A stretch of 39,799 nt of DNA from a virus. The translations under genes and the position numbers were made by a program. The notes beneath the pieces were generated by a model, which saw only the letters and a list, made by a program, of their open reading frames with translations, made no database searches and was not told the origin of the DNA. The stretch spans positions 1 to 39,799 of IMG/VR virus record IMGVR_UViG_3300010233_000088; one strand, written 5' to 3'. This document shows positions 2,511 to 38,522 of the stretch, one piece after another. Position 1 is the first letter of the stretch. Each line of letters starts with the position of its first letter.

Positions 2511-2664
2511 AAACTCTTCTGGTGGGTCTTACGATGTTTGTCTTGCGGTTCTTACGCATGTTTAAAACGTGGCGTTTCCATTGGCAGAGCCAATGACCAC
2601 AAGTCTTACGAAGTATGGGGCGTTTATTGCAGTATTCGCATATCCTTATTTCAGTTCCAGCCAT
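2506..2664 (-). CDS. Cys-rich zinc-ribbon mini-protein
   Basis: Starting at the ATG at 2664 this is 52 residues: C-x2-C (CEYC), then C-x3-x-C (CGHWLC) and a strongly basic C-terminal tail rich in Lys and Arg. An upstream GTG at 2694 would add 10 residues; neither start has a clear ribosome site. It overlaps the end of the glycosyltransferase gene by 19 nt or more. The Cys/His spacing suggests one zinc site and the basic tail suggests nucleic-acid binding. It is the last gene of the glycan operon. Function unknown. Confidence 0.55.
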   Translation of the reverse strand: MAGTEIRICEYCNKRPILRKTCGHWLCQWKRHVLNMRKNRKTNIVRPTRRVL

Positions 2665-3212
2665 AAAGTTATGCTTTCTTTTAGGATTTTCCACAATGAT
2701 ATTAATTCTACCTTCTTATTGGTGTGAGTAAATTCAATAGGAACTTCGATCATGCTGAAACCTTTTTGCTTGGCAAGTGAAAGTATTTCCAAATCGAATA
2801 ACCAACCATTGCTATACCATTCTGAAAGTGTGTGGCGCTTGAATATCTTTAAACCAGTTTGACTGTCAACTTTCATTCCAAATAATAAAGCTATATAAAG
2901 GCGTGACCAATACGTGATTAGGCGTCTTGACCATCGACCGCTTATTGGCTTCACCCCGCACACAATGTCATAGTCAGCAAGAAACGGTATTAATCGTTTA
3001 ATCATATTGGGATGAATGTCACCATCACCATCGAGGAAACACACAAATTCACCTGTGGCCTGTTTAAGAGCTTCACGCACCGCCCATCCTTTCCCAAGGG
3101 ATTGACGGTTGCTTGATACGATGATCTGGACATTATTAAATATTCCTTCAATCTCTTGTACTAATTCATTTACTTTCACCAAATCTGTTGCGGGAAGGAT
3201 TATTGATAACAT
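2646..3212 (-). CDS. DPM1-like family-2 glycosyltransferase, shortened N-terminal domain
   Basis: 188 residues. Recognisable polyprenyl-phosphate hexose synthase features: GKGWAVREAL, A-T-G-E-F-V-C-F-L-D-G-D-G-D (DXD-like metal site, about 66-70) and VDSQTGLKIF, a hallmark of the dolichol-phosphate mannosyltransferase branch. Such enzymes charge a membrane lipid carrier with a sugar on the cytoplasmic face. The usual first Asp pair (VDDGSxDxT) after strand 2 is missing: the chain jumps from QIIVSSN to SLGKG, so roughly 25 residues normally contacting the nucleotide are absent. Lipid-linked sugar from this protein would be a natural donor for the GT-C enzyme two genes upstream. It may be inactive. 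Confidence 0.8.
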   Translation of the reverse strand: MLSIILPATDLVKVNELVQEIEGIFNNVQIIVSSNRQSLGKGWAVREALKQATGEFVCFLDGDGDIHPNMIKRLIPFLADYDIVCGVKPISGRWSRRLITYWSRLYIALLFGMKVDSQTGLKIFKRHTLSEWYSNGWLFDLEILSLAKQKGFSMIEVPIEFTHTNKKVELISLWKILKESITLWLELK

Positions 3213-3214
3213 AG

Positions 3215-3388
3215 TTAGACCTTATCGAATGTGGATTTTAAGATTGACATAAATGTTTGTAAAGAAAAACCGTTGTAAACTAAATTGCCATTGGGATCTT
3301 TTTCTCCAGTTAACAGTTTCCCGCATTTGCTCTTTTCTACTCCTTCGTAAATAGTGTTGATCGTTTGTGCGATTTCTTGTGCTGTCAT
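3215..3388 (-). CDS. 57-residue mini-protein in the glycan operon
   Basis: ATG at 3388-3386 with a strong AAGGAG ribosome site; 57 codons ending TAA two bases before the next ATG. The sequence begins MTAQEIAQTINTIYEGVEKS and ends with an amphipathic FMSILKSTFDKV. A single Cys, no membrane segment. It fills exactly the gap between the GT-C gene and the DPM1-like gene, which supports it as a real gene. Unrecognised; function unknown. Confidence 0.65.
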   Translation of the reverse strand: MTAQEIAQTINTIYEGVEKSKCGKLLTGEKDPNGNLVYNGFSLQTFMSILKSTFDKV

Positions 3389-3398
3389 TTTTATCTCC

Positions 3399-4709
3399 TT
3401 AGATTAGTATTGTTATTTGCCCACGTTTGAAATTCCAAAGTATTTGCGCGACGGCTTTTTCCTGTCCTGCCGGTATGCACTTTTCTGCTCTTTCTAAATA
3501 TTTTAATGCTTCTTTCTTTTGATTACAATGATGTAAAACTACCGCAATATTATAAAGTACTTTAAATTCGTTTGGGCTTATTTTTAGAGCTTCCATCCAA
3601 AAAAGCAATGCCTCTTGGAATGATTGCTTCTCCCATCTTTTCATTGCCCCTATGTGCCAGCCAAACCATGAGTCTAAACTGTTTACTCGGCTAAATTCAG
3701 TGAGTATGAAATCATCCCTGTATCCGTCAATATAAAACCATGTCTTGCAGGCGTATGCCCCTAAGAGTCCAGCCACCAAATAAGGACTTGAATGAATAAA
3801 TTGAGAAACAACAAACATAAGACCCACATTAGGCAAATATGCATATCTCTCCGCGAGTTCTTGTTGCATACGATAAAGGTTAAGAAAAGGCGCTATCCCC
3901 AAACACCACCAGAGTAAGCCAAAACAAACCATGTCCCATTTGTGCGTTGATACATACCACGCCATTAAAGATACCGTAAATAAACCAAACCAAAATAACC
4001 TGCATAAAGAATACGCTTCTTTGACACGTGAACCCGCAATACTCTCAAGCAATGAGTGATAAAAAGTCGTCTTTATTGGCAACAGTGAATGACTTACATA
4101 GAAACCAAACGTCTTAATCGCAAGTATTATTTTCTTGGGATGAATCTTAGCGTCCTCTGTAAAAACCTCAATCTTGGCTTTCTGTGTTACATTATAACTG
4201 AACCTCCCAAAATTATACATCCATACTAAAGGAGCGAATATTAAAAGTTCAGGACGGCTTGAGCCAAACAAACACAACGGCATAATGAAACCGGAGTTTG
4301 TATAGGTAGCGCCAAGCAACATTAGCCCTCCCATCTCCATAGGTAAAGCTAATGCCCAAACCATCCCTAAAGATGCTAAAACATAATTCCTTCCGCTTAT
4401 CCAGACAGCGCCTTGATTATTGATAGGATTGAAAGCGAAAAGCAAAGAAGCAATGAAGCTAATACTATTAGAACCAAAGCCCAAATATATACCAACACAA
4501 ACCAACGTGTGAAGAAATAAAGTAAGCGCATGATCTATCTCCGGTTTGCTTTTTAATTTACCCTCAAACACCCAAAAGGCGTATTTCCAAACATTGATTG
4601 GGCGGTTGCGTTGATAAGAAGGATTGTCGTCGCTCACATAACCATATTTTATTGTCTTTAAATAAAAAAGTATGTTTGCTAATAAAATTATGCAGACTTT
4701 TTCAAACAT
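3399..4709 (-). CDS. TMTC-like GT-C membrane glycosyltransferase with C-terminal TPR repeats
   Basis: 436 residues. An N-terminal membrane helix is followed by GYVSDD (residues 23-28), the acidic first-loop motif of GT-C enzymes. Further on are the conserved loop AVWISGRNYVL and many hydrophobic helices up to about residue 330 with LAERYAYLPNVGL. A cytosolic or periplasmic tail has two TPR-like helical pairs (about 355-415: FQEALLFWMEALKISPNEFKVLYN...). This order matches the TMTC/DUF1736 O-mannosyltransferase-like family. Such enzymes move sugar from a polyprenyl-phosphate donor onto protein or glycan outside the membrane. A polytopic GT-C enzyme is very unusual in a 40-kb phage. It overlaps the upstream mini-gene by 22 nt. 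Confidence 0.8.
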   Translation of the reverse strand: MFEKVCIILLANILFYLKTIKYGYVSDDNPSYQRNRPINVWKYAFWVFEGKLKSKPEIDHALTLFLHTLVCVGIYLGFGSNSISFIASLLFAFNPINNQGAVWISGRNYVLASLGMVWALALPMEMGGLMLLGATYTNSGFIMPLCLFGSSRPELLIFAPLVWMYNFGRFSYNVTQKAKIEVFTEDAKIHPKKIILAIKTFGFYVSHSLLPIKTTFYHSLLESIAGSRVKEAYSLCRLFWFGLFTVSLMAWYVSTHKWDMVCFGLLWWCLGIAPFLNLYRMQQELAERYAYLPNVGLMFVVSQFIHSSPYLVAGLLGAYACKTWFYIDGYRDDFILTEFSRVNSLDSWFGWHIGAMKRWEKQSFQEALLFWMEALKISPNEFKVLYNIAVVLHHCNQKKEALKYLERAEKCIPAGQEKAVAQILWNFKRGQITILI

Positions 4710-4897
4710 TGGATACTTGACAACCTTTCAAGAGATTCTTTTATACGATCATTTTCATTCCTAATAAATACTTTTATACAATTTTTACAAATTTGACCAC
4801 AAAAAACTTTAAATTCAGCCATTCTATGACAGTCACTGTATTGGCATTCATTTTCTCGTTTTGGGTCTATAACGCTTCCATCAGTGATGTAGGGCAT
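4688..4897 (-). CDS. 69-residue Cys/His mini-protein, possible zinc ribbon
   Basis: Contains C-x4-C-x-H (CQYSDCH), then C-x3-C-x2-C (CGQICKNC), arranged like a zinc ribbon, followed by a charged helix. AAGGAAATTAA precedes its ATG. It overlaps the radical-SAM gene by 17 nt and the GT-C gene by 22 nt, so it is translationally tied to both. Similar Cys-rich mini-genes sit at 2506 and 5921 in the same operon. No family recognised. Confidence 0.65.
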   Translation of the reverse strand: MPYITDGSVIDPKRENECQYSDCHRMAEFKVFCGQICKNCIKVFIRNENDRIKESLERLSSIQCLKKSA

Positions 4898-5924
4898 TTA
4901 ATTTCCTTAATTTTTCCTCCATAACCAACCTTGCCCCTCTTAATAAATATTTAAAATCATCAAAATCTTTTATGTCTTTAAATTTGTGATACCAAAATTC
5001 TGGATAATGCAATACGTCATAAACCATTGGTATATATTTATGCCCAAGAGAATTAGGGTCAGGACGAGTACGAGGTGGCGAATAAACGGATGCCTGAGCA
5101 GTTTTAGCATATCCCTTCCTAAGTAAATAATGAATCATGTCCAAAGTATTTTGTGCGTCTTTTTCAGTTTCCCATTCATATCCAAACATGCTAGTCAAAT
5201 GGGGGTAAAGACCTGCCTCGCTCATCTTTTTTATGATTTCAATAGTAGTTTGTGCGTTCTGACCTTTTTGAATCTTATTTAAAGTTACTTGATTGGCGCT
5301 TTCGACTCCTACCAAGATAAACCTGAAACCAGCATCAGCCATCATTTTATAATCAATATTGACAGGCTTCATGTTACAGCCTAAGCGTATTTTCTTGTTA
5401 CGTCCATTAATTTTCATCTTCAAACAAAACTCTGTCAACCAATCCCCCACAGGGAATGTGCCTGAATCATCAAAGACCTCTTTATAACCATTGGCAATTA
5501 AATCGTCTATTTCTTCCATGACGTGGTCAACACTACGAATACCTCTTTTTTCGCCTTCTTGTAATTTTTTGGTATCGACACAGAAAACGCATTTCCCGTA
5601 CCAGCATAGATTTGACACCATCATGTGGGTAGCAGGATGCTTGCGATAATTGCCGTATCTTTGCCATCGTGGATTTTTGGCGTCTGTAAATATGCGGTCT
5701 GGATAGGGTAGTTTTTCAAAAGGAACATCTATTTGAAAATCATCTTTAATTTCTTTATCTACCGGCATCATTCCAAAACTAACGCTTTCTTTCCCCCAAA
5801 TAACTTGATGTTTTTGATTTCTTAAATAAGTCGCATAAGCGGCTAAATGAGCCGGGAATACCCAAACGGGCTTCTCAAACTGACGCTGCTGATTATAGGG
5901 GCTTAATGGAAATAAATATCTCAT
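4881..5924 (-). CDS. Radical-SAM enzyme of the B12-binding type (N-terminal domain shortened)
   Basis: 347 residues from the ATG at 5924, chosen because it forms an ATGA overlap with the upstream gene; an in-frame start 33 bases further up is less likely. The iron-sulphur motif is CWYGKCVFC (C107, C112, C115), a CX4CX2C variant of CX3CX2C. Downstream are the typical GVES and (M)FGYEWETEKD segments. The first 50 residues (FPAHLAAYATYLRNQKHQVIW) resemble the end of a cobalamin-binding domain, but the DxHxxG cobalamin motif is absent. Enzymes of this group methylate or rearrange unactivated carbons; in this operon a sugar or lipid-carrier substrate is likely. Reaction unknown. Confidence 0.85.
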   Translation of the reverse strand: MRYLFPLSPYNQQRQFEKPVWVFPAHLAAYATYLRNQKHQVIWGKESVSFGMMPVDKEIKDDFQIDVPFEKLPYPDRIFTDAKNPRWQRYGNYRKHPATHMMVSNLCWYGKCVFCVDTKKLQEGEKRGIRSVDHVMEEIDDLIANGYKEVFDDSGTFPVGDWLTEFCLKMKINGRNKKIRLGCNMKPVNIDYKMMADAGFRFILVGVESANQVTLNKIQKGQNAQTTIEIIKKMSEAGLYPHLTSMFGYEWETEKDAQNTLDMIHYLLRKGYAKTAQASVYSPPRTRPDPNSLGHKYIPMVYDVLHYPEFWYHKFKDIKDFDDFKYLLRGARLVMEEKLRKLNALHH

Positions 5925-6202
5925 CCTTCCCACTCCACCTTTAGCCATCCACAACATATTTTACATAGTAAATTATTTCTCATATACGTATTACCTTTTG
6001 TTTCTGCGCTACAGTTCTCACAAACAAACCTTTTAGAAGCATAATCCATGTTCTCACACTGCCTTATTAAAACGCTTCGACAAATTGTTTTACTATAATC
6101 ATCCACACAAGCAGAAGAAAATACAGAATCTTCGCCCTCTACAAATACCCTTGAATCTTGGGGAAATTTATTTAATTCCTCAATGAGTTCACTTATTTTC
6201 AT
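5921..6202 (-). CDS. Small protein: helical N-terminus plus C-terminal zinc ribbon
   Basis: 93 residues from the ATG at 6202 (ATGA overlap with the dehydratase stop; MGRA further up is outside the coupling pattern). The N-terminus KISELIEELNKFPQDSRVFVEG resembles a widespread small phage/bacterial protein that typically reads (S)xELIxxLxxxPxDAxVxV. The second half has C-x2-C (CENC) and C-x2-C (CKIC) forming a probable zinc ribbon. Function unknown. Its stop overlaps the radical-SAM start. Confidence 0.7.
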   Translation of the reverse strand: MKISELIEELNKFPQDSRVFVEGEDSVFSSACVDDYSKTICRSVLIRQCENMDYASKRFVCENCSAETKGNTYMRNNLLCKICCGWLKVEWEG

Positions 6203-7212
6203 AGCCCTACCCACTCAGGATGTTCCATTGTCCACTTAACTGTACGTTCAAGTGATTCTTCAAGGTTCTTAGGGAATGCATGCCCGTAATTGCGAAGTTT
6301 CTCACCGCTTAATCCGTAGAATGGGTCGTGACCAGGACGGCTTGTTTCTGCGTCAACCATTTTATACTTTAATTCTTCGCCCATAATATTGGCAATCAAT
6401 AGTGCCATGTCTAAGTTACTTATTTGCTTTCCTCCAACAATATTAAATCTCTCCGGTCGGTTTGCTTGCGGATATAAGGGGACAGGAACGTTCTGAAGCA
6501 TGAACAGTAAAGCGTCAGAGGTGTTGCGGGCGTGTAGCCAGAACCTTGCTCCGGAGATTGTCTTTGTTGGGTCTGAGTGAATCGTAACAGTTTCACCTAA
6601 AATTATTTTCCTTATTACCATTGGAATAAATTTTTCATGATCTTGCATCTCCCCAAATGTGTTCATAATGTTTGTAAGGATCACCGGAACCCCATAAGTG
6701 CGCCAGTAGCTTATTGCTATTGCGTCTTGTGATGCTTTGCTTGCGCTATAAGGGTTTGAAGGTAATATGGGAGACCATTCAGGATGATTATGCACTCCAT
6801 CCGTTGGGCCGTAAACCTCATCAGTGCCTATTTGTATAAACTTTATTGGCTTTGCCTGCCGTGCATATTCAAGCATGTTTAACGCAATATTTACATTATT
6901 TTGAACGAAAGGTACGGGGTCTGTGATACTGCGGTCTACATGTGAGGCTGAACAAAAATTTACGATATAATCCACATTTCCAATAGTCCCTCTAAGTACT
7001 GAAGAAATAGGAGCATTTAAATCATGAGTAAATATTCTTACTCTACTTTTATCTTTCTGGTAATGTTCAGAAAATGTTATCCTTTCTGACATCCCTTTAT
7101 GGTTAAAACTGTCAAGGCAAACCACTTCCCAGTCTGTGTTAACAAGAATATGGCTTAAACAATGCGAACCTATAAAACCTCCTGCCCCAGTTATAAGAAT
7201 CCTTTTAGTCAT
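6199..7212 (-). CDS. dTDP-glucose 4,6-dehydratase-like SDR (RmlB family)
   Basis: 337 residues, extended short-chain dehydrogenase. NAD site GAGGFIG (9-15); the family signature SASHVDRSI; catalytic TDE (130-132, in TDEVYG) and YSASK (Tyr155, Lys159); EKFIPMVI downstream. The TDE triad distinguishes 4,6-dehydratases from plain 4-epimerases, so conversion of an NDP-hexose to its 4-keto-6-deoxy form is likely. The product is the normal substrate for NDP-sugar C-methyltransferases such as the one at 11173-12225. No RmlA-type nucleotidyltransferase is in the window, so the activated sugar must come from the host. Overlaps the upstream GT2 by 8 nt. Confidence 0.88.
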   Translation of the reverse strand: MTKRILITGAGGFIGSHCLSHILVNTDWEVVCLDSFNHKGMSERITFSEHYQKDKSRVRIFTHDLNAPISSVLRGTIGNVDYIVNFCSASHVDRSITDPVPFVQNNVNIALNMLEYARQAKPIKFIQIGTDEVYGPTDGVHNHPEWSPILPSNPYSASKASQDAIAISYWRTYGVPVILTNIMNTFGEMQDHEKFIPMVIRKIILGETVTIHSDPTKTISGARFWLHARNTSDALLFMLQNVPVPLYPQANRPERFNIVGGKQISNLDMALLIANIMGEELKYKMVDAETSRPGHDPFYGLSGEKLRNYGHAFPKNLEESLERTVKWTMEHPEWVGL

Positions 7213-8086
7213 TTGGCCTTTCTATAACTTTCGAGTATCTTCTTGCTACGTGATTTCGAAAAAACTTTGAAAGTGACCGGAGAACCAGAGAAGGAACCAA
7301 CATGGCCGTCAGCGTATAAAACCAAAACTTCCATGACAATAATACCTTCTTGTCGTTTTTTACGTGCAGACATATTTCCCCCCAAAGTAAATGTGACGCT
7401 CTATTCTTTAAAGTAATAAATACAGGAAAATCTTGGTAATTTTGTCCTAATAAATCAATCCAGTTTTGGGTAGGTGATTCGGTGTAATAAGAGGATTTTG
7501 TTCCTGTATTAAATCCAGGCATGTAACGAGAAGCCACGGTGTCGTACTCAATCATTGTCCAACGATATTTGGGCAGGTACTGCGATACTATAGATGGCAT
7601 CTCCACAAAGATTTTATTTGTCCCGACTATGTCCATTTTTCTAAACGCCATTCCTGACGGACAACAGCTACTTGTCAAAATGTTAGGGTCGCGACAAACG
7701 CCAATCGCACCTTTGTGACCATGTAAGAAGTAATACTTGTAGGCAGCAATGATTCCTATTTCTTTATTCTCGTTGAAGATTTTAACAATATCACTTAAAA
7801 CTTTTGGATGTGTTAAAATATCATCGGCACACAAATATAATATATACCGAGTTTCACATAATGTCATTAACTTTTCTAAGTTTTTTCCTATCCCTAAATT
7901 AAATGGGTTTGATATGACACGAACGCCAAAACTTAAAGCTATCTCCGCCGTATTGTCCGAAGAGCAGTCATCACAGACAAGGATTTCCTTTAACGGGTAC
8001 TCTTGGTCTAATGCGCTTTCTATCGCTTCTGCAATAACATCTTGGTTATTATGAGAAGGAATTGCTATAGTTATTTTATTTTTCAT
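7205..8086 (-). CDS. Family-2 glycosyltransferase, paralogue of 8322-9194
   Basis: 293 residues. GT-A fold: AIPSHNN, CDDCSSDNT (first Asp pair) and CADD (metal-binding DXD equivalent, about residue 98). A hydrophobic segment near residue 245-270 and a basic tail suggest membrane association. It shares blocks with the gene two places upstream: (N/C)PSG(L/M)AFRK, TNK(M/I)F(V/I)E, (K/E)YDTVA(V/S)R, SP..(E/N)W and WGEIC/WDEIC. The two are therefore a diverged tandem duplication. The start ATG overlaps the preceding stop (ATGA). Substrate unknown; addition of a sugar to a lipid-linked or surface glycan is expected. Confidence 0.85.
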   Translation of the reverse strand: MKNKITIAIPSHNNQDVIAEAIESALDQEYPLKEILVCDDCSSDNTAEIALSFGVRVISNPFNLGIGKNLEKLMTLCETRYILYLCADDILTHPKVLSDIVKIFNENKEIGIIAAYKYYFLHGHKGAIGVCRDPNILTSSCCPSGMAFRKMDIVGTNKIFVEMPSIVSQYLPKYRWTMIEYDTVASRYMPGFNTGTKSSYYTESPTQNWIDLLGQNYQDFPVFITLKNRASHLLWGEICLHVKNDKKVLLSWKFWFYTLTAMLVPSLVLRSLSKFFRNHVARRYSKVIERPND

Positions 8087-8325
8087 TTATAAAAATCTTT
8101 CTCAAAAAAAATATAAAAAACAAATGTGATATTACATACACAGATTAAGACCCTTCTTTGCATTTTTTTAAATCCAAATTCAATATTTACAATATGAAAA
8201 TTAGAGTGATCTGGATTTTCTATTTGAACACAAATCCTAACTGCTTTGTATTGTGTAAAGAAAGCATCAAATCCTATAACAGAAATGTTAGGATGGTCTG
8301 ATTCTGGAATAAAACGAAATCTCAT
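8083..8325 (-). CDS. 80-residue protein between two GT2 paralogues
   Basis: Start ATG at 8325 chosen because it forms ATGA with the preceding GT2 stop and its own stop forms ATGA with the next GT2 start. The N-terminal part is beta-rich (RFRFIPESDHPNISVIGFDAFF...), and the C-terminus is hydrophobic (VLICVCNITFVFYIFF), probably a single membrane helix. No family recognised. The position between two paralogous glycosyltransferases suggests a role as a partner or membrane anchor, but this is inference. Confidence 0.6.
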   Translation of the reverse strand: MRFRFIPESDHPNISVIGFDAFFTQYKAVRICVQIENPDHSNFHIVNIEFGFKKMQRRVLICVCNITFVFYIFFEKDFYK

Positions 8326-9194
8326 TTCCTTTTTACCTCCCTTGTTGTCCATTTTCCCCACGTTGCCCTGTAAATATCCGGAATTTTAAGTAGTATTGGT
8401 GTCGGTATAATAAGTGCCACCAGACCAAAAAACCAAAGGCAAGGATTGAATATATTATCAGGATTGACCCATACAAAATTACAGATCTCATCCCACACCG
8501 CCTTTCTGGTGAAGTAATTGCTGATTTGAATTAAGGATGTGAAGTCATTGGATTCCCAGCCAAGCTTTGCCCATTCAAGAACAGGGGAAGAAGTCCACAT
8601 TTTTTTATAATAGTCTTTAGATCGGGCGGTGCTCTTGTGGACACGTACGGCAACGGTGTCGTATTTTAGAATTGAATATAACCATCCTCTTTCAATAACA
8701 GATTGGACTAAAAAAGGCGCTTCAATAAACATTTTATTTGTTAATACTAATTTTCCAACGTAATTTATCTTTCCTGGTAGAGTTGTGAATTTACCATCTA
8801 AAATGCTCTTTCTAAATGCCAACCCCGATGGATTATTAGCAATTTCGAATATATTATCACCACGCCAAGCCCTTACCGGTCTTTTATCTCCATCTACAAA
8901 CTGATAATACCATCTTGACACATGACCCATTCCAGTATGAGTTTCAAAACATTTTACAATATCTTCAATTACGTGCTTGTCTGTAAAATAGTCGTCTGCA
9001 CAAAGCAACACTATAATGTCCCCTTTAGCGTATGATATTGCTCGGTTAAACGATTCCCCGCTTCCAACGCCTTCAAGATCATCGTAAACAACAGTTTCAA
9101 TGTTCTTGTATGTCTGCATGTTAATACTTGCGCGGGCTTCTGGTAAAAATTGATCCTGTTTATAATTGGCTATACATACGCTAACGGCGAGCAT
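8322..9194 (-). CDS. Family-2 glycosyltransferase
   Basis: 290 residues. SVCIANYKQDQFL, YDDLEG (first Asp pair in a shortened loop), and LCADDYF (metal site, about residue 68-71) place it in GT2. The middle carries NPSGLAFRKS and TNKMFIEAPF, shared with the paralogue at 7205. The C-terminus (CLWFFGLVALIIPTPILL) is hydrophobic and ends in a basic tail, suggesting peripheral membrane attachment. It overlaps the upstream GT2 by 14 nt. The acceptor is unknown. Confidence 0.85.
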   Translation of the reverse strand: MLAVSVCIANYKQDQFLPEARASINMQTYKNIETVVYDDLEGVGSGESFNRAISYAKGDIIVLLCADDYFTDKHVIEDIVKCFETHTGMGHVSRWYYQFVDGDKRPVRAWRGDNIFEIANNPSGLAFRKSILDGKFTTLPGKINYVGKLVLTNKMFIEAPFLVQSVIERGWLYSILKYDTVAVRVHKSTARSKDYYKKMWTSSPVLEWAKLGWESNDFTSLIQISNYFTRKAVWDEICNFVWVNPDNIFNPCLWFFGLVALIIPTPILLKIPDIYRATWGKWTTREVKRK

Positions 9195-9864
9195 AGATTA
9201 TCCCCCTAATTACCAATAGAAATATAAGCCCCAAAGTAAGTATTGGATGTCTTAACAACTTCTTCCACTTCCCCTTTTCAGTATAAACAGTCACACACCT
9301 GTACCAAATATTCAAACAACGATCATCGGGATTAAGTTCTTTGTATTTATCCATACTCTTTGAGTAGTACGCTTTCTTCTGGCAATACTTATAAAATGGG
9401 ATGTCGTCATGGTGATAAAGGACTGATTTGCTTACTGCCCTTAATCCAATTATTCTATTACCAAAGTCTGCATCTTCCGGCCCATGCAATTCTTCGTTAA
9501 AAAGGGGGCAACAACGCCTTAATACCGCTTTAGGCACATCTACAGACGTTCCGGTCAAAAAAGACCTCTCAAATGCCCTTATACGCCCAAAGAATGACTT
9601 TGCTACGATGATTTCAGGGATATATACAGATGTGTAACCTGTACTTATTAGATTTTCACATTCTTTAACTACACCAGGGCCCAAAGACTGATCGCTGTCT
9701 AACCAAATAATGATGTCCCCTTTTGCTTGGCGTATTGCCATATTCCTTTGAACCGATCTTTCAAGTCCCTGGTTGATTTCAATGTATTCAACATTGAGGG
9801 GCAAAGAATTTCTTAAAACGGATGTGTCCCTGCCATGGTTAGCACAAATTATGCTTGTTTTCAT
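9181..9864 (-). CDS. Family-2 glycosyltransferase with C-terminal membrane anchor
   Basis: 227 residues. GT-A features: SIICANHGRD, LERSVQRNMAIRQAKGDIIIWLDSD (DSD metal site, about 57-59), GPEDADFGNRI (the ED catalytic-base region) and a final hydrophobic helix PILTLGLIFLLVIRGIIYARR. Shorter than the two neighbouring GT2 enzymes and a separate lineage. Stop and start are coupled to the FAD enzyme upstream by ATGA and to the downstream GT2 by a 14-nt overlap. Confidence 0.83.
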   Translation of the reverse strand: MKTSIICANHGRDTSVLRNSLPLNVEYIEINQGLERSVQRNMAIRQAKGDIIIWLDSDQSLGPGVVKECENLISTGYTSVYIPEIIVAKSFFGRIRAFERSFLTGTSVDVPKAVLRRCCPLFNEELHGPEDADFGNRIIGLRAVSKSVLYHHDDIPFYKYCQKKAYYSKSMDKYKELNPDDRCLNIWYRCVTVYTEKGKWKKLLRHPILTLGLIFLLVIRGIIYARR

Positions 9865-10988
9865 ACATCAAAACCCATCATAATTGATTGAGTAACCCCG
9901 CAAAATTCCCACTTACCATACCGGCCTGTACTGGTAATATCTCTTTCCTTAAGCCATTGAATTTCCTTGGAAACATCTTCTTTGTTGTACTGCCACGTAT
10001 ACGCACACTCAACCCAATCAATGCAAATCGTTTCAGGTTTTTTAATCCATCCCCAATCCATAAGCTCTTGACAGACTTCCCTTGCTATGAGATTCGTTTC
10101 TATGCCTTTAATTTTTGTATTATGGTACGCGATTTCAACGCTTAATCCTACTCGATTAGGCGGAGCTTTTGATTCATCAACATTTGTATAAAAACTAACG
10201 CGGTGGAATCCTGATTTACAAAATGGTATATATAGCCAATGTTCTTTGGGAAAATTAACGTTTGATTCTGCACCAACATTTATTACTAAAACAGAGGTGT
10301 AAGGAAGATTTGATTCTTGACCGCATAATTCCATACATTTGTTTAATGGGATTGTTGAAATTAACCTTCCGTATTCTTCCGAAGTACCATCCTCAAATTC
10401 AACCTCTCTGTCATCCGTATGTATCTTTGTTGCTTTCTTGTTATATTGAATATCACACTTACTCGCCATCTTCTCAACTAAATCATCTAATCCGTTAACA
10501 GGATCACAAAAGGTACTTACCCATCCTGTTCCTGTTTTGGGTGTTTTATAATTATCTTGTGGTAATACGGAGCTCATTAAACCAGCCGTATATTTTTCAT
10601 TAAATGGGTGAAAAAACAAATTACATTGTTCTTTCCCAAAATTAGAAACAAGCCACCCATCAAAATATTGAGGAGACCAATCTCCTTTGAATTCTTCCAA
10701 ATCTTTTGAAGCCGTAGATTGAAAAGGATAAGGGAAAATATGGTTATAATAAACTCCTGCCTTACGCTCGTATTCTTTAACCTCAACTAAACTCTTGATG
10801 TATTCAAGTCCCTTGTCTTTACCAAAAAGGTAATGTGGCCCCCCGTTTGAGAACCTAAAACCGTCCTTCACATAGTCCGTACAAATACCGCCTGCGTGAT
10901 CGGTTTTCTCGTAAATGGTTGCCCCTGTCTTAATGCCCGCTGCCATACCTGAAAATCCTGCCCCAATTATGATAGTTTTACTTTGCAT
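9861..10988 (-). CDS. FAD-dependent oxidoreductase/mutase of the UDP-galactopyranose mutase-like group
   Basis: 375 residues. N-terminal dinucleotide fold GAGFSGMAAGI (8-18) followed by YEKTDHAGGICTDY, then GGPHYLFGK, which recalls the H/GPH-x-F region of galactopyranose mutases; the C-terminus GRYGKWEFCGVTQSIMMGF recalls the FAD-closing G-R-x-G motif. The family converts pyranose to furanose sugars or acts as amine/protoporphyrinogen oxidase; in this operon the sugar role is the likelier. The true mutase active-site arginines cannot be checked by eye. Overlaps the 68-residue gene by 22 nt. Confidence 0.8.
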   Translation of the reverse strand: MQSKTIIIGAGFSGMAAGIKTGATIYEKTDHAGGICTDYVKDGFRFSNGGPHYLFGKDKGLEYIKSLVEVKEYERKAGVYYNHIFPYPFQSTASKDLEEFKGDWSPQYFDGWLVSNFGKEQCNLFFHPFNEKYTAGLMSSVLPQDNYKTPKTGTGWVSTFCDPVNGLDDLVEKMASKCDIQYNKKATKIHTDDREVEFEDGTSEEYGRLISTIPLNKCMELCGQESNLPYTSVLVINVGAESNVNFPKEHWLYIPFCKSGFHRVSFYTNVDESKAPPNRVGLSVEIAYHNTKIKGIETNLIAREVCQELMDWGWIKKPETICIDWVECAYTWQYNKEDVSKEIQWLKERDITSTGRYGKWEFCGVTQSIMMGFDV

Positions 10989-11173
10989 TTAAACTCCAGT
11001 TTGTGATAACTTATATTGTAATTATTGTTTACGTCTTTTTTTATTTTAATACCATCGACCCTAAACTCTTCTCCATCTTCTGTTCTAGCATATAGTCCAC
11101 TCTTTTGATCTAATTTCAAAAGTTGTTTTACATAATCGCCAACTGTGGCTTTTACTATAAATATTTCTTTCAT
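10967..11173 (-). CDS. 68-residue mini-protein in the glycan operon
   Basis: Begins MKEIFIVKATVGDYVKQLLKLD and continues with alternating charged and hydrophobic residues suggestive of a small beta-rich domain. The start overlaps the methyltransferase stop (TAATG) and the end overlaps the FAD gene by 22 nt. One Cys; no membrane segment. Unrecognised. Confidence 0.6.
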   Translation of the reverse strand: MKEIFIVKATVGDYVKQLLKLDQKSGLYARTEDGEEFRVDGIKIKKDVNNNYNISYHKLEFKCKVKLS

Positions 11174-12225
11174 TAAATTATCCTTTCAAATCTATCATTC
11201 TTGTTAGGACGTAACTTTTTAATCTTTACGGATATTTCATCAAATAGGTTGTGAGCGCAAATGATGTTTAAATCCCTTGGGTCTTTAGAAAAATGTTCTG
11301 CGCTTACTATTGGGGAATTTATGCCTGGAATAAACTTCCCTTGCTTTAAATGGTTGTCATCAACTACGTATTCGGGTTTTAGGTTATAATAATTTAGTAA
11401 AACTATTTCGCTGGCGCTTGCTCCATAAACAACAAAATTACCTTGCGTTTCCTTGCATGGCCTTGCCATACCTAGCCGTGCCGTTCCACGCCTTGCCGTA
11501 TCGATTTTTCTAATTTCAAATAAATAGCTCTCTCTGTGCATTGGTGCTGTTTTAAAACTCACAACTTCAACACCACATTTTTGAGCAAGCACCATCATGC
11601 TTTGAGGTGTAAAATAAGAAATATGCTCATGGTAAAAATTATCTAAGCGGGCGGGTGTGGTAAGTATATAAATTCTCCCCTTGTCTTTAAGTAGTTTGGA
11701 AGCTTCAATTAAGAATGTCTTGGGGTCGTCATTATGGGCAAACACATTAAAAGCGGTAATTAAATCAAACTTCATTCCAATATCTGCCTGTAAAGGGAAA
11801 AATTCGTTTAAAACATGAACTTCTCTTTTAATTGCTATTTCATAAAGGTCTTTACATGGCTCTATCCCCATGACAAACCATCCCTCCATTTTTAAACAAC
11901 TCAATAGAGTTCCGTCATTACATCCTATATCAATAGCGGTGTTGCCATAATGATTGAGTGATTGGGAAAAATCTATTAAAAAATCAAGATGAGATATAGA
12001 TGTTCCTGTTTGGTAAAGATAGTCCTTAAACAACAATTCCCGATCAACCGCTACGCTTAACTGTTTATGTGTACATAACAGACATTCATTGACTACTAAT
12101 GGAAATTTAACATCTTCTTTTTCAGGAGAAACTTTTAAATTATTAACTAGAGGCATTAATCCCATATCACAGAAAATATTTAATTCTTTATTCCCACACA
12201 CCAAACATGATTTAAGTTCCTTCAA
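11173..12225 (-). CDS. NDP-sugar C-methyltransferase with zinc-binding N-terminus
   Basis: 350 residues. Cys4 zinc module (C7, C10, C48, C51), SAM-binding motif DIGCNDGTLL (99-108), the FYHEHISYF segment (about 197-205), HRES in place of the usual HGGS (230-233), and a C-terminal domain starting NFVVYGAS and ending with VSAEHFSKDP. This is the TylCIII/NovU-type architecture that methylates C-3 or C-5 of dTDP-4-keto-6-deoxy sugars, the product of the RmlB-like enzyme. It is about 60 residues shorter than typical members because the linker before the C-terminal domain is replaced by a low-complexity TARRGTARLGMARP segment. Start is TTG at 12225, six bases after GGAG. Confidence 0.85.
   Translation of the reverse strand: MKELKSCLVCGNKELNIFCDMGLMPLVNNLKVSPEKEDVKFPLVVNECLLCTHKQLSVAVDRELLFKDYLYQTGTSISHLDFLIDFSQSLNHYGNTAIDIGCNDGTLLSCLKMEGWFVMGIEPCKDLYEIAIKREVHVLNEFFPLQADIGMKFDLITAFNVFAHNDDPKTFLIEASKLLKDKGRIYILTTPARLDNFYHEHISYFTPQSMMVLAQKCGVEVVSFKTAPMHRESYLFEIRKIDTARRGTARLGMARPCKETQGNFVVYGASASEIVLLNYYNLKPEYVVDDNHLKQGKFIPGINSPIVSAEHFSKDPRDLNIICAHNLFDEISVKIKKLRPNKNDRFERII
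11441..11500. repeat. Pentanucleotide-periodic tract inside the methyltransferase gene
   Basis: On the plus strand the 60 bases fall into twelve 5-base units, ten of them beginning CC (CCTTG, CCATA, CCTAG, CCGTG, CCGTT, CCACG...). On the coding strand this is a run of NNNGG units. Because 5 is not a multiple of 3, the tract reads through all frames and encodes Ala/Arg/Gly-rich peptide. It is much more GC-rich than its surroundings and sits exactly at an expected domain linker. Confidence 0.75.
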
Positions 12226-12850: not shown

Positions 12851-12874
12851 ATCCCTCCTTTAACAATGCCGTTT
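12851..12874 (-). promoter_or_regulatory. Repeated mini-gene leader (one of six near-identical copies)
   Basis: Minus-strand core CGGCATTGTTAAAGGAGGG ending in a strong ribosome site directly before an ATG. Near-identical copies lie at 12851-12874, 13119-13142, 13309-13332, 13577-13600 and 13846-13869, with a diverged one at 12652-12680. Each copy heads one small gene. Conservation extends about 10 bases beyond the ribosome site, more than translation alone needs. Confidence 0.8.
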
Positions 12875-13118
12875 AATCTCTAATAATTTTTAAAGCGTGT
12901 TCAATCTCACATCTAAAAGACCCAATATCCTTGAGCATGGTAAGAAAAGCTTCTAATCTTGCACTATCAAACCAATATTTTTGTGAACCATACCCACTGT
13001 CAAAAGATAATATTCCAGCGGTAGATTGGTACTCCATTTTAGCTACATGACTTGGACATCCTTCTTGTCTGCAATCATCCGAGCATGAATATTTAAACTC
13101 TCTTACTGTAGTACTCAT
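12873..13118 (-). CDS. 81-residue Cys-rich protein, duplicate copy A
   Basis: Identical at protein and DNA level to the gene at 13331-13576. N-terminal part has C-x3-C-x4-C (CSDDCRQEGC) and a His (PSHVAKMEYQ), then a beta-rich segment and a C-terminal helix. It may bind one metal ion. Its ribosome site lies in the shared leader at 13119-13142. No family recognised. Confidence 0.75.
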   Translation of the reverse strand: MSTTVREFKYSCSDDCRQEGCPSHVAKMEYQSTAGILSFDSGYGSQKYWFDSARLEAFLTMLKDIGSFRCEIEHALKIIRD

Positions 13119-13308: not shown

Positions 13309-13602
13309 ATCCCTCCTTTAACAATGCCGTTTAATCTCTAATAATTTTTAAAGCGTGTTCAATCTCACATCTAAAAGACCCAATATCCTTGAGCATGGTA
13401 AGAAAAGCTTCTAATCTTGCACTATCAAACCAATATTTTTGTGAACCATACCCACTGTCAAAAGATAATATTCCAGCGGTAGATTGGTACTCCATTTTAG
13501 CTACATGACTTGGACATCCTTCTTGTCTGCAATCATCCGAGCATGAATATTTAAACTCTCTTACTGTAGTACTCATACCCCTCCTTTAACAATGCCGTTT
13601 AA
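13305..13602. repeat. 298-bp perfect direct repeat, copy 2
   Basis: Second copy of the 298-bp unit (see 12847-13144). The absence of any difference, including third codon positions, means either a recent duplication or ongoing gene conversion; an assembly collapse or expansion error is also possible. Confidence 0.92.
13331..13576 (-). CDS. 81-residue Cys-rich protein, duplicate copy B
   Basis: Second, identical copy of the 12873-13118 gene, with the same leader and ribosome site (13577-13600). Two identical copies may raise dosage. The copies also provide homology for expansion and contraction of the array. Confidence 0.75.
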   Translation of the reverse strand: MSTTVREFKYSCSDDCRQEGCPSHVAKMEYQSTAGILSFDSGYGSQKYWFDSARLEAFLTMLKDIGSFRCEIEHALKIIRD

Positions 13603-14590: not shown

Positions 14591-14923
14591 TTAGTCAGCG
14601 ACCTTCCTTGTCAAATCCGTCATATAATCATATTCACGGGCTTTATCAATCTCCCAAATGCCAGGTTCTAAAGTTATATTGTCATGGCGTTCCTTAATTG
14701 CACAATAAACTTCCGTAGGAACATCATTTTTGAGCCATAATACACCATTAGAGTCTTCGAATAACTCAACACCTTCTTTGGCTTCCAGTAGGTGAAAATT
14801 CCCAGATGTTTCCGAATCTGCCAAACGGTAGCATCCCTTATCGAATAATTTTACCTTCTTTAATCCTTCTGGTAATTTACAAGATTTCATTAACAAACAT
14901 TCTCCATGATAATAAGTTTTCAT
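14591..14923 (-). CDS. Conserved-type small phage protein paired with the repeat protein
   Basis: 110 residues. Pattern YYHGECLLMKSCKLPEGLKKVK...LADSETSGNFHLLE...GIWEIDKAREYD...RKVAD fits a beta-barrel-like family that usually reads QGDvLl...LPxG...GExTGHxHxl...pGxYxvxrqREYxpexxRxVxD and is often encoded next to DUF6745-type proteins, as here. Start ATG forms ATGA with the stop of the repeat protein and is preceded by GGAGGGCAT. Function of the family is not known to me. Confidence 0.75.
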   Translation of the reverse strand: MKTYYHGECLLMKSCKLPEGLKKVKLFDKGCYRLADSETSGNFHLLEAKEGVELFEDSNGVLWLKNDVPTEVYCAIKERHDNITLEPGIWEIDKAREYDYMTDLTRKVAD

Positions 14924-16182
14924 TTTATGCCCTCCAAGTGGATGGTACGGTTATTTGCTCTATATTTTAAAGCTTCTTCAATAGTTTTGCAAGATGGGTC
15001 AACACCTTCGAAATGATAATTCCCTGTAGTTAAATTCTTCATTTTTAAGAATACCGCCCTCTTACGATTAAATATTGAACCCATATTATAAAGCTCATAT
15101 TCCGAATCAACGTACCAACGATTATTATTGTATTTAGCGTCACAAATCTTTGTGCCTAGTGACAACATTCTTTGAATGCCGTATTTTCGTATGAATTGCG
15201 CCTTAACGTCTGCATTTGATTCTTTCTTGAAAAATTCAATATCTAATTCACTTTCAGGAGTTTTTGATAAATAATCAGGGACTTTTACACCATTAAGAAA
15301 ACTCATCCCATACCCATCTGAATATTTAACTGCAAGATCACCGTCTTTATGCAATATTCCATTATCCCAGTGTATTTCAGTCGGTTTTTCGGATATAAAA
15401 CAAATATTTTTGTATGGAATTATAAAATTAACCTCTGAACTAAAATTAACAAATAAATCATACTTATCATTGTCAAATTCAACTCCTATTGATTTCCCAT
15501 ATTCATACCAACCACACGAAATTAACCAAAATATTCCTAAATACCAATTTGAATTAATTGATTTTAATATTTCATTATTTGGTTGGCTGTCCAACTGGTT
15601 GTACAACTGGCTGGACAACTGGTTGGACAACTGGCTGTCCAACTGGCTGTACAACTGGCTGTACAACTGGTTGTACAACTGGCTGGACAACTGGCTGGAC
15701 AACTGTCTGGACAACTGGCTGGACAACTGGCTGGACAACTGGCTGGACAACTGTCTGGACAACTGGCTGGACAACTGGTTGTACAACTGGCTGTACAACT
15801 GGTTGTACAACTGGCTGTCCAACTGGCTGTACAACTGGCTGGACAACTGGTTGGACAACTGGCTGTCCAACTGGCTGTACAACTGGCTGTACAACTGGTT
15901 GTACAACTGGCTGTCCAACTGGTTGTACAACTTTTTAAGCAAATCCTTATCTTCTTTAATCAACTTAAAAAACAATTCACACAATAAAATCGTATTCATT
16001 GGACTAAATCCAAATATTATTAATGGTTGTTCTAGTCCCATTGACTTATAAAGTTTTCCCGTGTATTCAATAGCCTTTTTGTGAACCATTGGCTTTGAAG
16101 CTATGCCAACCCATTTTTCTATTGTCTTAGGAATTTGTAGTTCTTGTTTTTTTGTTAATTTAGTTATTATTCTGGGATTCAT
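14920..16182 (-). CDS. DUF6745-like protein with about thirty 4-residue repeats
   Basis: 420 residues. Residues 1-82 are helical; about 83-201 are an uninterrupted array of Q-L-x-(S/N) units with x = Tyr, Ser, Asp or Arg; then a domain with EIHWDNGILHKDGDLAVKY...GYGMSFLNGVKVPDYL and a C-terminal strand TTGNYHFEGVDPSCKTIEEALKYR. The latter two blocks match the LHxxDGPAVxxxDG...G..VP and VPPxxxTxxEAlaW features of DUF6745 proteins, which also carry Q-hydrophobic repeats. The repeat encodes a long regular helix or solenoid. Overlaps HNH upstream and the 110-residue gene downstream by ATGA. Function unknown. Confidence 0.8.
   Translation of the reverse strand: MNPRIITKLTKKQELQIPKTIEKWVGIASKPMVHKKAIEYTGKLYKSMGLEQPLIIFGFSPMNTILLCELFFKLIKEDKDLLKKLYNQLDSQLYNQLYSQLYSQLDSQLSNQLSSQLYSQLDSQLYNQLYSQLYNQLSSQLSRQLSSQLSSQLSSQLSRQLSSQLSSQLYNQLYSQLYSQLDSQLSNQLSSQLYNQLDSQPNNEILKSINSNWYLGIFWLISCGWYEYGKSIGVEFDNDKYDLFVNFSSEVNFIIPYKNICFISEKPTEIHWDNGILHKDGDLAVKYSDGYGMSFLNGVKVPDYLSKTPESELDIEFFKKESNADVKAQFIRKYGIQRMLSLGTKICDAKYNNNRWYVDSEYELYNMGSIFNRKRAVFLKMKNLTTGNYHFEGVDPSCKTIEEALKYRANNRTIHLEGIK
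15582..15937. repeat. 12-bp minisatellite, about 30 units
   Basis: Units of CAACTGG(C/T)TGTA or CAACTGGCTGGA and CAACTGGCTGTCC-type variants run without interruption, encoding four residues each. Variation is nearly confined to one codon (TAC, TCC, GAC or CGA-type on the coding strand). Unit length 12 keeps the reading frame whatever the copy number. All three plus-strand frames are open here only because the unit lacks stop codons. Confidence 0.95.
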
Positions 16183-20396: not shown

Positions 20397-21650
20397 TCAT
20401 AAAGATATTCCAAACTCATTTAGTTTCTTTTCTTCCTCCGTTGCCTCATCCAAGCTGTCCGCGTAAGTTTCTATGTAATATCCTTCAATCTGCTCGCAAG
20501 CTTCCTTGCATTTCTTAATAGCTTCTTCCTTGGTATCTCCTGTGGCCACAACTGCCCCTATTTCGGGCAATCCTACCCCTTGCGGGGCTACATAATATTT
20601 ACCGTCAATTATACACAAATTCCTGAATTTCATATTATCCCTTAATTCAGGGGGAAACTCAATCGGTTGCCAATTATTATCAGCCCAGGACGAATGAATT
20701 AAAACTTCCGCCCCGTACTTTGCCTCTGCAATCGGTTCAACCAGAACGCCCTCAGCCCCATACCAAAGGATTTCCGCAAGATTTGAATACATGTTCTGTA
20801 CCAACTCACCAGGAGGGCTTCCGAAACGGCACATAGGGTCAATAACCCAAGGCGTTCCGTCTTTAGTAATCCGCATTTCACAACAAAAAAAGTTCTTGTA
20901 TCCATAACTTGCAAGTGTTGGGGCGACCTTCGCGTTTATATCTTTGACCTGTTGGCACATCTTATCATATTCTTTAAACACACCTAAATAAGACTTGTCT
21001 TTTATTTCGATTCCAGCCATAGCATGTTTAGGAAATTTTCCATCAATAGTAAATCCATCATAACCAACCTCTACTGCTTCTGTGATAGCGTCCTCAACAA
21101 CCCACTCCATTACTGATTTCTTAGCGCCTAATTTATATTCAAGTTCATCAAGTTTTGGCTCAATCAATTTATAATTCTTAGATTTAAAAGTTTCCATGTC
21201 CCCGCGTGTCGTTGAAACCTTTACATACTGGTCTTCATGTTCTTTCAAATGCGCCCTTAAATTAGCCATTCCTTTAACGACTTTGTAGTTTCCTATATTT
21301 ATACCAAGACTTCGTAAATGCTCTTTTGTTTCAGGGCGGTAAAGCTCTAATTCATCACCACAACGGGAACCCCATACCCTTTTACCTTGAGATTCAAGTT
21401 CTAACTGTTCTGGCCCTGTATAAATATCGGGAAACACCCACAAGTCAACTTCGTCTTTGACTTCCCAATAATTATAAATGCGTTCAACTCCGGGGATTCC
21501 TTTTCCTACAATCCTTGTGTTAGACTGTGGGAAAGCGTTAACCCAGTGCATGTAATAAAGCACACGCCCAAAAGTTTTTGAAAGAGTTACCGCCAACTCA
21601 ATAAACAAACCATTGTCTATGATGCAAACTGTCTTATTGCTGAAGTCCAT
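20397..21650 (-). CDS. ATP-grasp ligase related to PurD (glycinamide ribonucleotide synthetase-like)
   Basis: 417 residues. N-terminal pre-ATP-grasp domain, then ATP-grasp with YVKVS (Lys144), MEWVVEDA, GFTIDGKF, CCEMRITKDGTPWVIDPMCRF (Glu258, Asp271, Arg275 region) and a C-terminal domain (YVAPQGVGLPEIGAVVATGDTKEEAIKKC) like that of PurD. PurD joins a carboxylate to an amine via acyl phosphate, so amide-bond ligation is predicted. It lies inside the virion operon, between internal virion proteins and the tail fibre, and overlaps a SpeD-like gene by 17 nt. A purine role is improbable here; substrate unknown. Confidence 0.82.
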   Translation of the reverse strand: MDFSNKTVCIIDNGLFIELAVTLSKTFGRVLYYMHWVNAFPQSNTRIVGKGIPGVERIYNYWEVKDEVDLWVFPDIYTGPEQLELESQGKRVWGSRCGDELELYRPETKEHLRSLGINIGNYKVVKGMANLRAHLKEHEDQYVKVSTTRGDMETFKSKNYKLIEPKLDELEYKLGAKKSVMEWVVEDAITEAVEVGYDGFTIDGKFPKHAMAGIEIKDKSYLGVFKEYDKMCQQVKDINAKVAPTLASYGYKNFFCCEMRITKDGTPWVIDPMCRFGSPPGELVQNMYSNLAEILWYGAEGVLVEPIAEAKYGAEVLIHSSWADNNWQPIEFPPELRDNMKFRNLCIIDGKYYVAPQGVGLPEIGAVVATGDTKEEAIKKCKEACEQIEGYYIETYADSLDEATEEEKKLNEFGISL

Positions 21651-35290: not shown

Positions 35291-35974
35291 TTATCCTTCG
35301 TTCATAATTACGACGCGTGACTCTTCAAGACGCACGGCGCCGATGTTTAGTTCATAATACACTTGCCAAGAATACGACAAGTCGGTACGTTCATCCGTAC
35401 GCACATACGGAGCATCAGCCATTGCCATGCAAATACCAAAGCGTTGGTAAGCAACTCCGATAAGTGTTGAGGATGAAGCCGCCGCGATACGAGTGGACAT
35501 AATCCACTTGAAGCCTAGGAATGAATCAATCTCTCCACGCACTAACGATTTGACCGAGTTATAATCGCTCGATGTAAAGGCTGTAGTGTTTAAGAGATTA
35601 TCCAAGGCATCCGGTCGGATGCAGATAAACCGGTCTTCCATCTCCACATCATTAACGTCAAAGACTTGCTTGACAGCTAAGATACGAGCAAGTGTCATTG
35701 AAGCTGACGACATGAGGGTGATGTTTCCTGCGGTGGTAGTACCAGTACCCGTTTCACCTGTGTACGCTGTACCAAGTAAACCGTTCTGTAAGATGGTGTC
35801 ATCCATCTGACGGCCTAAAGACTGTGCCGCCGCAATCGTATAAGCACTACGAGGGTCAGAGATTACCTTCAACTCGTCTGTCCTGTCCAACATACGGTTG
35901 TCGTTGTAATCAATCATCAGACCCATACGACGACCTAAAACGGGGTCGTTATTTGGTGTTTGTGAGTTACGACC
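35291..35974 (-). CDS. Major capsid protein, C-terminal 227 codons (gene split by rearranged joint)
   Basis: In-frame from GGT at 35974, reading GRNSQTPNNDPVLGRRMG and then LMIDYNDNRMLDRTDELKVISDPRSAYTIAAAQSLGRQMDD. The first 18 residues equal the last 18 of the partial gene at 39575-39799, so the full protein is 284 residues. The pattern fits the phage major capsid family of podoviruses (DxxD...dpxsxyxxaxAxxlgRxxDd, then GEIDSFLGFKWIMSTRI). The residues MHLV that precede this in an open frame come from reading the inverted portal sequence and are artefactual. Confidence 0.85.
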   Translation of the reverse strand, partial: GRNSQTPNNDPVLGRRMGLMIDYNDNRMLDRTDELKVISDPRSAYTIAAAQSLGRQMDDTILQNGLLGTAYTGETGTGTTTAGNITLMSSASMTLARILAVKQVFDVNDVEMEDRFICIRPDALDNLLNTTAFTSSDYNSVKSLVRGEIDSFLGFKWIMSTRIAAASSSTLIGVAYQRFGICMAMADAPYVRTDERTDLSYSWQVYYELNIGAVRLEESRVVIMNEG

Positions 35975-35975
35975 T
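35921..35975. repeat. 55-bp inverted copy of 39745-39799
   Basis: Exact reverse complement of the last 55 bases of the window. Together with the 33-bp match of bases 1-33 to 35972-36004, it defines how the genome closes. The two matches overlap by only ACCT (35972-35975), the junction microhomology. Confidence 0.92.
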
Positions 35976-37842: not shown

Positions 37843-37843
37843 T

Positions 37844-38424: not shown

Positions 38425-38433
38425 GAGGGAGTT

Positions 38434-38508
38434 ATGAGCAAGACAGGACGTACAGGTCACAGGGTAAAAATTAAGATACCAACCAATCCAAGACAACCAA
38501 ACGGTTAA
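38434..38508 (+). CDS. 24-residue basic peptide
   Basis: ATG three bases after AGGAGGGAGTT, coding MSKTGRTGHRVKIKIPTNPR then QPNG and a TAA stop. Very basic, with no acidic residues. The strong ribosome site and the fit between two genes support translation, but the size makes it uncertain. A DNA-binding or scaffold-associated role would be a guess. Confidence 0.45.
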   Translation: MSKTGRTGHRVKIKIPTNPRQPNG

Positions 38509-38522
38509 GAAAGAAGGAAAAA

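Follow-up and report, generated by a model that had tools for sequence, protein, structure and literature searches.

What would a tailed phage do with a polytopic membrane glycosyltransferase that ends in a TPR tail? The question is raised by one gene (P0001) in the stretch of DNA analyzed here, a virus record of 39,799 bases that we refer to throughout as the window. An initial annotation, made from the letters alone, had described the gene product as phage-encoded, and the podovirus genes of the same record (large terminase, connector, major head protein and tail proteins) bear this out; the open reading frame (ORF) lies exactly where it had been placed, at 3399-4709 on the minus strand, and specifies 436 aa. 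We argue below that the phage GT-C protein is a real finding, and a sharper one than had been stated: it belongs to a distinct clade, found in phages, of TPR-tailed GT-C_A enzymes. On the evidence of sequence comparison it is part of a conserved module that joins the GT-C protein to a radical SAM (rSAM) enzyme and a putative lipid-phosphate-sugar-synthase-like enzyme. By means of this compact membrane enzyme, a group of uncultivated tailed phages probably adds sugars to something outside the infected cell. The features discussed are collected in Table 1.

Table 1. Features of the GT-C gene and its cassette in the window.
Feature	Position	Strand	Basis or remark
GT-C glycosyltransferase with TPR tail (P0001)	3399..4709	(-)	ATG start, 436 aa, frame intact
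Membrane domain, residues 1-330, GT-C_A core, 11 predicted helices	3720..4709	(-)	model, VIA-align, hhalign
Ser26-Asp27-Asp28, first outer loop, putative catalytic/metal-binding acidic pair	4626..4634	(-)	conservation; TMTC motif M1 (PMC7801869)
AVWISGRN, EL2 motif, residues 101-108; GRxY in the phage family	4386..4409	(-)	alignments
HSLLPIKTTFYHS, EL4, residues 207-219, position equivalent to TMTC DW motif	4053..4091	(-)	alignments
Glu287-Arg288-x-x-Tyr291, EL5, putative lipid-phosphate-binding arginine	3837..3851	(-)	conservation; TMTC motif M7 (PMC7801869)
TPR tail, residues 345-415, about two repeats	3465..3677	(-)	Pfam, profile, fold; strongly conserved
DPM1/GtrB-like family-2 glycosyltransferase, 188 aa, no membrane helix, putative polyprenyl-phosphate-sugar synthase	2646..3212	(-)	PF00535 1.5e-11
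57-aa ORF between DPM1-like and GT-C genes, no assigned function	about 3215..3388	(-)	read from sequence
69-aa cysteine-rich ORF between rSAM and GT-C genes	4688..4897	(-)	nothing above cut-off in Pfam
Radical SAM protein, likely start MRYLF at 5924, upstream neighbor of GT-C	4881..5957	(-)	PF04055 3.5e-15
NDP-sugar 4,6-dehydratase-like, closest to dTDP-glucose 4,6-dehydratase	6199..7212	(-)	TIGR01181 7.7e-61, 206 of 365 bits, below equivalog cut-off
Family-2 glycosyltransferase	7205..8086	(-)	PF00535 2.2e-24
Family-2 glycosyltransferase	8322..9194	(-)	PF00535 3e-10
Family-2 glycosyltransferase	9181..9864	(-)	PF00535 9.4e-9
FAD amine-oxidase/UDP-galactopyranose-mutase-like oxidoreductase	9861..10988	(-)	PF01593 4.3e-12; TIGR00031 8.7e-8
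Sugar C-methyltransferase-like protein, window only	11173..12225	(-)	PF08421/PF13489/PF08484; not found in other loci

The record itself has some peculiarities. Compared with all relatives, the segment from 35972 to 39799 lies in inverted orientation. The left end of the window, read on the reverse strand, shares 33 bases with the stretch from 35972 onward, and the window's final 55 bases repeat 35921-35975 as a reverse complement, the site being an ATGCAT palindrome. At the boundary of the inverted segment, the genes for the connector and the head protein have each lost their N-terminal end. Most likely the inversion is a misassembly of a circular map, in which case the record would be close to a whole genome. 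Judged by the connector protein, the closest isolates are Pelagibacter phages (about 33% identity). Elsewhere, two identical 81-aa ORFs (12873-13118 and 13331-13576) stand 458 bases apart, as a recent direct duplication or an assembly artifact, and the ORF at 14920-16182 contains a long run of short repeats (SQLYNQLYSQLDSQL...), to which an alanine/arginine/tryptophan repeat at 4-384 of a related phage locus, L013, is comparable. Among the tail genes, a 417-aa ORF (20397-21650) appears ATP-grasp/phosphoribosylamine-ligase-like by eye, with PHROGs giving no function.

The elements from which the GT-C assignment had originally been made are present in the protein: the SDD motif of the first loop at residues 26-28, the AVWISGRN loop at residues 101-108, a polytopic membrane portion with 11 plausible membrane helices in the predicted model, and C-terminal TPR-like pairs, which are real and amount to roughly two repeats rather than a long array. 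Pfam detects the latter at residues 383-411 (TPR_1 5.9e-6, TPR_2 1e-5, both just under their gathering cut-offs), and designed TPR proteins match residues 345-424 in a profile search of PDB sequences. No family library names the membrane half, for which Pfam is silent beyond the TPRs, and profile searches of PDB sequences return TPR proteins only, for the phage family and its cellular relatives alike.

Structure prediction is more informative on this half. In a full-length model (eight alignment rows, pLDDT 70.6), VIA-align places GT-C enzymes on residues 1-330 and aligns TPR folds over residues 331-431. With a model of the membrane domain (ten alignment rows, pLDDT 78.7, pTM 0.82), all of the best 33 rows are GT-C enzymes, at Z 8.7-16.1 and with 228-289 residues aligned, before an unrelated row follows at Z 5.2. 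The protein O-mannosyltransferase Pmt4 is the top match (Z 16.1, rmsd 4.5, 279 aligned), ArnT with undecaprenyl phosphate reaches Z 14.7, and AglB, PglB, OST, ALG9, AftB, EmbA/B and others are also found. The fold is resolved only by VIA-align: Foldseek gave no E < 1e-3 against the PDB for either model and nothing < 1e-3 against viral models, where a protein of Oenococcus phage phiS13 came nearest (TM 0.58). The loops surrounding the active site are modeled at a pLDDT of only about 50-75. The predicted structure thus yields the GT-C core that the initial annotation had anticipated, and the membrane half is, as modeled, a GT-C_A glycosyltransferase fold.

Orientation is a separate matter. In the published scheme for TMTC enzymes, the DD loop, the ER loop and the TPRs all lie outside (PMC7801869), and the 11 modeled helices of the phage protein fit this scheme. 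Placement of the Asp pair outside the cytoplasm, as had been supposed, holds insofar as the pair follows TM1, in the loop that is on the outer face in PMT, ArnT and TMTC proteins, but loop charges lend it no independent support. The helices are connected on the inside by very short loops, of two to four residues, in which lysine and arginine are nearly absent; positive charge is plentiful in the long outer loops. Since the positive-inside rule does not back the orientation, outer-face placement rests on homology, from which we infer that the active-site loops face outward.

The gene has company among phages. Scans of IMG/VR revealed further phage homologues at 42-62% identity, at first nine other intact ones, and a scan with the rSAM family raised the total to 27 distinct GT-C proteins, down to 27% identity with the window protein. 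Because intact phage homologues exist (the reading frames of the first ten members are uninterrupted) and dN/dS is far below 1 (0.004/0.108 for L008/L010; 0.33/1.7 for the window and L001), the ORF is not a product of chance. The GT-C protein found no match in 50,697 deposited phage records or in 72,556 plasmids. Searching IMG/VR with two cellular sub-profiles likewise returned no TMTC-like gene, so that, at that pattern sensitivity, the phage clade is the only viral holder seen. One close relative, returned by a scan of genomes, is a phage contig (RXKC01000030.1) assigned to a Saccharibacteria MAG; an error of binning would be enough to account for this assignment.

Within this family, the DD pair after TM1 (Asp27/Asp28) occurs in 27/27 phage homologues and in nearly all cellular ones, and Glu287 and Arg288 are invariant in all 27, with Tyr291 lost in one clade. 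Positions kept in at least 95% of the 27 are Asp27, Asp28, His60, His67, Trp103, Gly106, Arg107, Tyr109, Lys177, Glu181, Asp186, Lys199, Pro211, Phe216, Tyr217, His218, Asn277, Arg280, Gln283, Glu284, Glu287 and Arg288, together with many residues of the TPR tail; the GRxY and FYH motifs are retained to the same degree. This pattern bears on the proposal that the protein is a catalytically dead GT-C serving as a membrane scaffold or decoy. The GT-C relative in GPI transamidase is non-catalytic, and the subunit in question is among the structural matches; moreover, TMTC motifs M3-M5 are changed in the phage family and the loops have shrunk. However, a dead enzyme is hard to reconcile with retention of the Asp pair, Glu287, Arg288, GRxY and FYH at that level, or with a donor-synthase-like gene kept beside the GT-C gene, and we regard this proposal as very improbable.

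Relatives in cells, for which our sampling covers the Patescibacteria, clarify where the phage protein belongs. GT-C enzymes with TPR tails are present in many bacteria and, to our knowledge, uncharacterized there. Those of Patescibacteria (about 490-660 aa) align with the phage protein along its whole length. PF13231 (PMT_2) has no match in the phage proteins; among ten cellular relatives scanned, all of which have TPRs, three pass the cut-off, two come close and five have no match either, which indicates that the model is insensitive here. Even for alignments without the TPRs, hhalign connects the phage family with three separate cellular groups, at E 1.9e-15, 4.1e-10 and 9.9e-10 (probabilities 98.5/96.7/96.5 for the membrane domain alone). 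Reversed or locally shuffled controls reach a probability of at most 3.4 and an E of 0.013 or worse, and shared hydrophobicity is therefore not the cause of the match. In the tree, the phage proteins form one clade (100/100) on a long stem, which probably reflects a single origin followed by long evolution in phages. Nesting of the phage clade inside a cellular one was considered and rejected, as the tree keeps the phage proteins apart. Several SDD-type cellular relatives share with the phage family the EL2 tyrosine and a YHS/YHE variant in EL4.

Whether the protein should be called TMTC-like, as initially proposed, depends on what is meant. Seven motifs have been described for TMTCs, including M1 (DD, EL1), M3 (RxD, EL2), M4 (KE(T/Q)xxT, EL3), M5 (DW, EL4) and M7 (ERxxY, EL5) (PMC7801869). 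M1 is kept in the phage family, as is M7 in the window protein, its ER being universal in the phages and its tyrosine missing from the one clade. By contrast, M3 has become RxY (Arg107-x-Tyr109, with Lys in one of 27), M5 is replaced by YH (Tyr217-His218) in all 27, the KE of M4 is absent from 27/27, PxxP is reduced to one proline, and the SHKSYRP motif is not recognizable. A Pfam search of the window protein at E 10 does not bring up PF08409 (TMTC_DUF1736), nor was this domain found in six related phage records. The label is apt for the architecture and for the homology to bacterial TMTC-like proteins, but with PF08409, RxD, KE(T/Q)xxT and DW missing, several defining features are lacking, and we do not file the phage protein as a TMTC; by sequence, it is best described as a relative of TMTC-like bacterial GT-Cs and no TMTC sensu stricto. 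This weighs on the idea that it might act as animal TMTCs do, as a protein O-glycosyltransferase in which exported proteins of phage or host, bound by the TPRs, are glycosylated on Ser/Thr by the GT-C core. The domain order is that of TMTCs, Pmt4 is the best structural match, the TPR tail is strongly conserved, and bacterial GT-C-TPR homologues of human TMTC3 exist (PMC7801869). Nevertheless, there are only about two TPRs, the RxD, KE and DW motifs are gone, ArnT matches the fold nearly as well as Pmt4, and the fold does not reveal the acceptor.

The neighboring genes offer further guidance. A DPM1-like gene two genes downstream had been noted as a possible source of donor, and it is indeed there, with a 57-aa ORF in between. 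A profile of nine such proteins matches GtrB sll0501 best among PDB sequences (9e-7), followed by the P. furiosus DPMS (2e-6, over most of the length) and ArnC (1e-4); accordingly nearest to polyprenyl-phosphate-sugar synthases, the protein is a putative enzyme of this type. The triad of rSAM, GT-C and DPM1-like genes is kept in the first ten phages (10/10), among which the dehydratase, the FAD enzyme and two of the three other family-2 glycosyltransferases (GT2s) come and go (L013, L039 and L041, in none of which a 4,6-dehydratase-like gene was found). A distant phage clade has the DPM1-like gene upstream, or shows none in the available stretch. Across viral loci with this rSAM subfamily, a GT-C gene follows the rSAM gene in 34/47; exclusivity of the rSAM to GT-C was rejected on the strength of the other 13, which have no GT-C gene in the available stretch and belong mostly to another phage type. 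This second type (L073, L075, L082, L084, L090, L097 and L101) carries the same rSAM subfamily with, on the opposite strand, a GT2-like gene and a different polytopic protein, several of the latter having an FFPHW-like stretch near the N terminus. No Pfam family names that protein, a YfhO-like identity is unsupported by Pfam, and it is possibly another GT-C. The phage rSAM itself has CX4CX2C spacing (CWYGKCVFC) instead of CX3CX2C, and its N terminus is shortened relative to B12-type cellular relatives.

Such a cassette could also serve lipid-linked oligosaccharide extension, in the manner of ALG3/9/12, ALG6 or PimE: its three GT2s would start a cytoplasmic chain on polyprenyl diphosphate, to which the GT-C would add a sugar after flipping and before transfer. 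The three GT2s and the presence of ALG12/ALG9/ALG3 and PimE among the structural matches are in keeping with this scheme. Yet no priming phosphoglycosyltransferase, Wzx or ligase was recognized among the window ORFs, and the GT2s are not kept in all GT-C phages (L013), which leads us to consider it a rather unlikely account.

A counterpart of the phage module exists in Patescibacteria. With the rSAM subfamily defined as at least 190 bits against the phage rSAM profile (background rSAM proteins score <100 bits), it is present in 19/191 genomes; the SDD-type TMTC-like clade (>=400 bits) occurs in 13, and 12/13 have both (Fisher p 1.8e-13, a value that ignores kinship). In G008, G112, G084 and G127 the two genes are 1.7-4.2 kb apart, and in three of these four a phage-type DPM1-like GT2 (88-101 bits) adjoins the GT-C gene. 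The DPM1-like gene is often preceded by one for a polytopic Wzx-type protein (PF13440/PF01943 in G008). The G127 locus also contains nucleotidyltransferase, 4,6-dehydratase-like, FdtA, acetyltransferase-like and aminotransferase-like genes (the last three partly by eye), a dTDP-deoxyaminosugar-type set that suggests a deoxyaminosugar pathway. A cellular cluster seen in Patescibacteria loci L050, L051, L063 and L064 groups a Wzx-type protein, a DPM1-like GT2, a second GT2 and an rSAM, often with a small membrane protein; a TMTC-like gene is nearby in four genomes, and we know of no description of this cluster. The cassette of the phages, which likewise includes a 4,6-dehydratase-like gene, may be a reduced version of a surface-glycan locus of this kind, borrowing the host flippase. 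A GtrA-type flippase (PF04138) had no match in nine phage records, while control matches appeared in 13/14 genomes. Phages of Patescibacteria have been reported with nucleotide-sugar genes (PMC12911398).

These surroundings, in phages and cells, resemble glycan loci, and an envelope glycan fits the genetic context at least as well as protein O-glycosylation does. Virion proteins, in addition, assemble in the cytoplasm and so would not meet the active site, making such cytoplasmically assembled acceptors unlikely. With these points added to the missing motifs, we consider protein O-glycosylation after the TMTC model an unlikely alternative. The reading we prefer, with confidence slightly better than even for the whole of it, is that of a working GT-C_A enzyme which the infected cell carries in its cytoplasmic membrane; the two TPRs and the active site, made up of Asp27/Asp28 in the first outer loop and Glu287/Arg288 in the last, would lie outside. 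The DPM1/GtrB-like enzyme would load a sugar from a nucleotide donor onto host polyprenyl phosphate, a flippase, probably the host's, would turn the product over to the outside, and the GT-C would hand the sugar on to an acceptor in the envelope, for which a glycan or glycoconjugate of the host surface is the likeliest candidate. In this scheme Asp27/Asp28 would form the catalytic/metal site, Arg288 would contact the phosphate and the TPRs would hold the acceptor in part; the rSAM enzyme and other sugar genes of the cassette may act in making or modifying either the sugar or the acceptor chain. A changed cell surface would be the likely benefit, through receptor masking, exclusion of other phages or reduced loss of progeny to debris. 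A bolder variant, to which we assign little probability, makes the triad a compact outer-face module in which the rSAM remodels the sugar or lipid-linked sugar and the TMTC-like enzyme attaches it to exported proteins held by the TPRs. If true, viral protein glycosylation of the TMTC type, with non-standard sugar chemistry, would be seen here for the first time, in parallel with the cellular rSAM/DPM1-like/GT-C-TPR system of Patescibacteria.

On the envelope reading we favor, the cassette extends phage surface remodeling beyond classical Gtr operons. A GT-C of 436 aa with minimal cytoplasmic loops, under purifying selection across a phage clade, provides a small and tractable model for its family, and the functional link indicated among rSAM, lipid-phosphate-sugar synthase and GT-C-TPR is testable in cells and phages alike.

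Phage-encoded extracytoplasmic glycosylation is already known from Gtr-type systems, which set a precedent for an envelope-modifying role (PMC11127046; PMC3688519). Like the three-component O-antigen glucosylation systems (GtrA-GtrB-GtrC/Gtr*), the present cassette combines a phage-borne GT-C with a polyprenyl-phosphate-sugar-synthase-like GT2, and extracytoplasmic glycosylation is the likely outcome in both; it differs in that its GT2 lacks the membrane helices of GtrB, its GT-C is TMTC-like with TPRs, and an rSAM gene is added. The streptococcal Pgf protein glycosylation system offers a lead only: PgfS is a weak family match for 8/9 DPM1-like enzymes (best 3e-7), far below its cut-off. PMT (GT39) and ArnT (GT83) are the closest solved folds, but the phage GT-C is only 8-12% identical to them and carries a TPR tail in place of the MIR or ArnT periplasmic domain. 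Animal TMTC1-4 (CAZy GT105) share the order of GT-C core and then TPRs, with far more repeats than the two or so of the phage tail. The nearest parallel is with bacterial PMT_2-TPR proteins (e.g., L018, L021 and L034 of Patescibacteria), which have a collinear membrane domain followed by TPRs, the same DD, WISG, YHS/YHE and ERYxY loops and, in some genomes, rSAM and DPM1-like neighbors; compared with these, the phage protein is smaller, has tiny loops on the cytoplasmic side and about two TPRs, and is only 15-20% identical.
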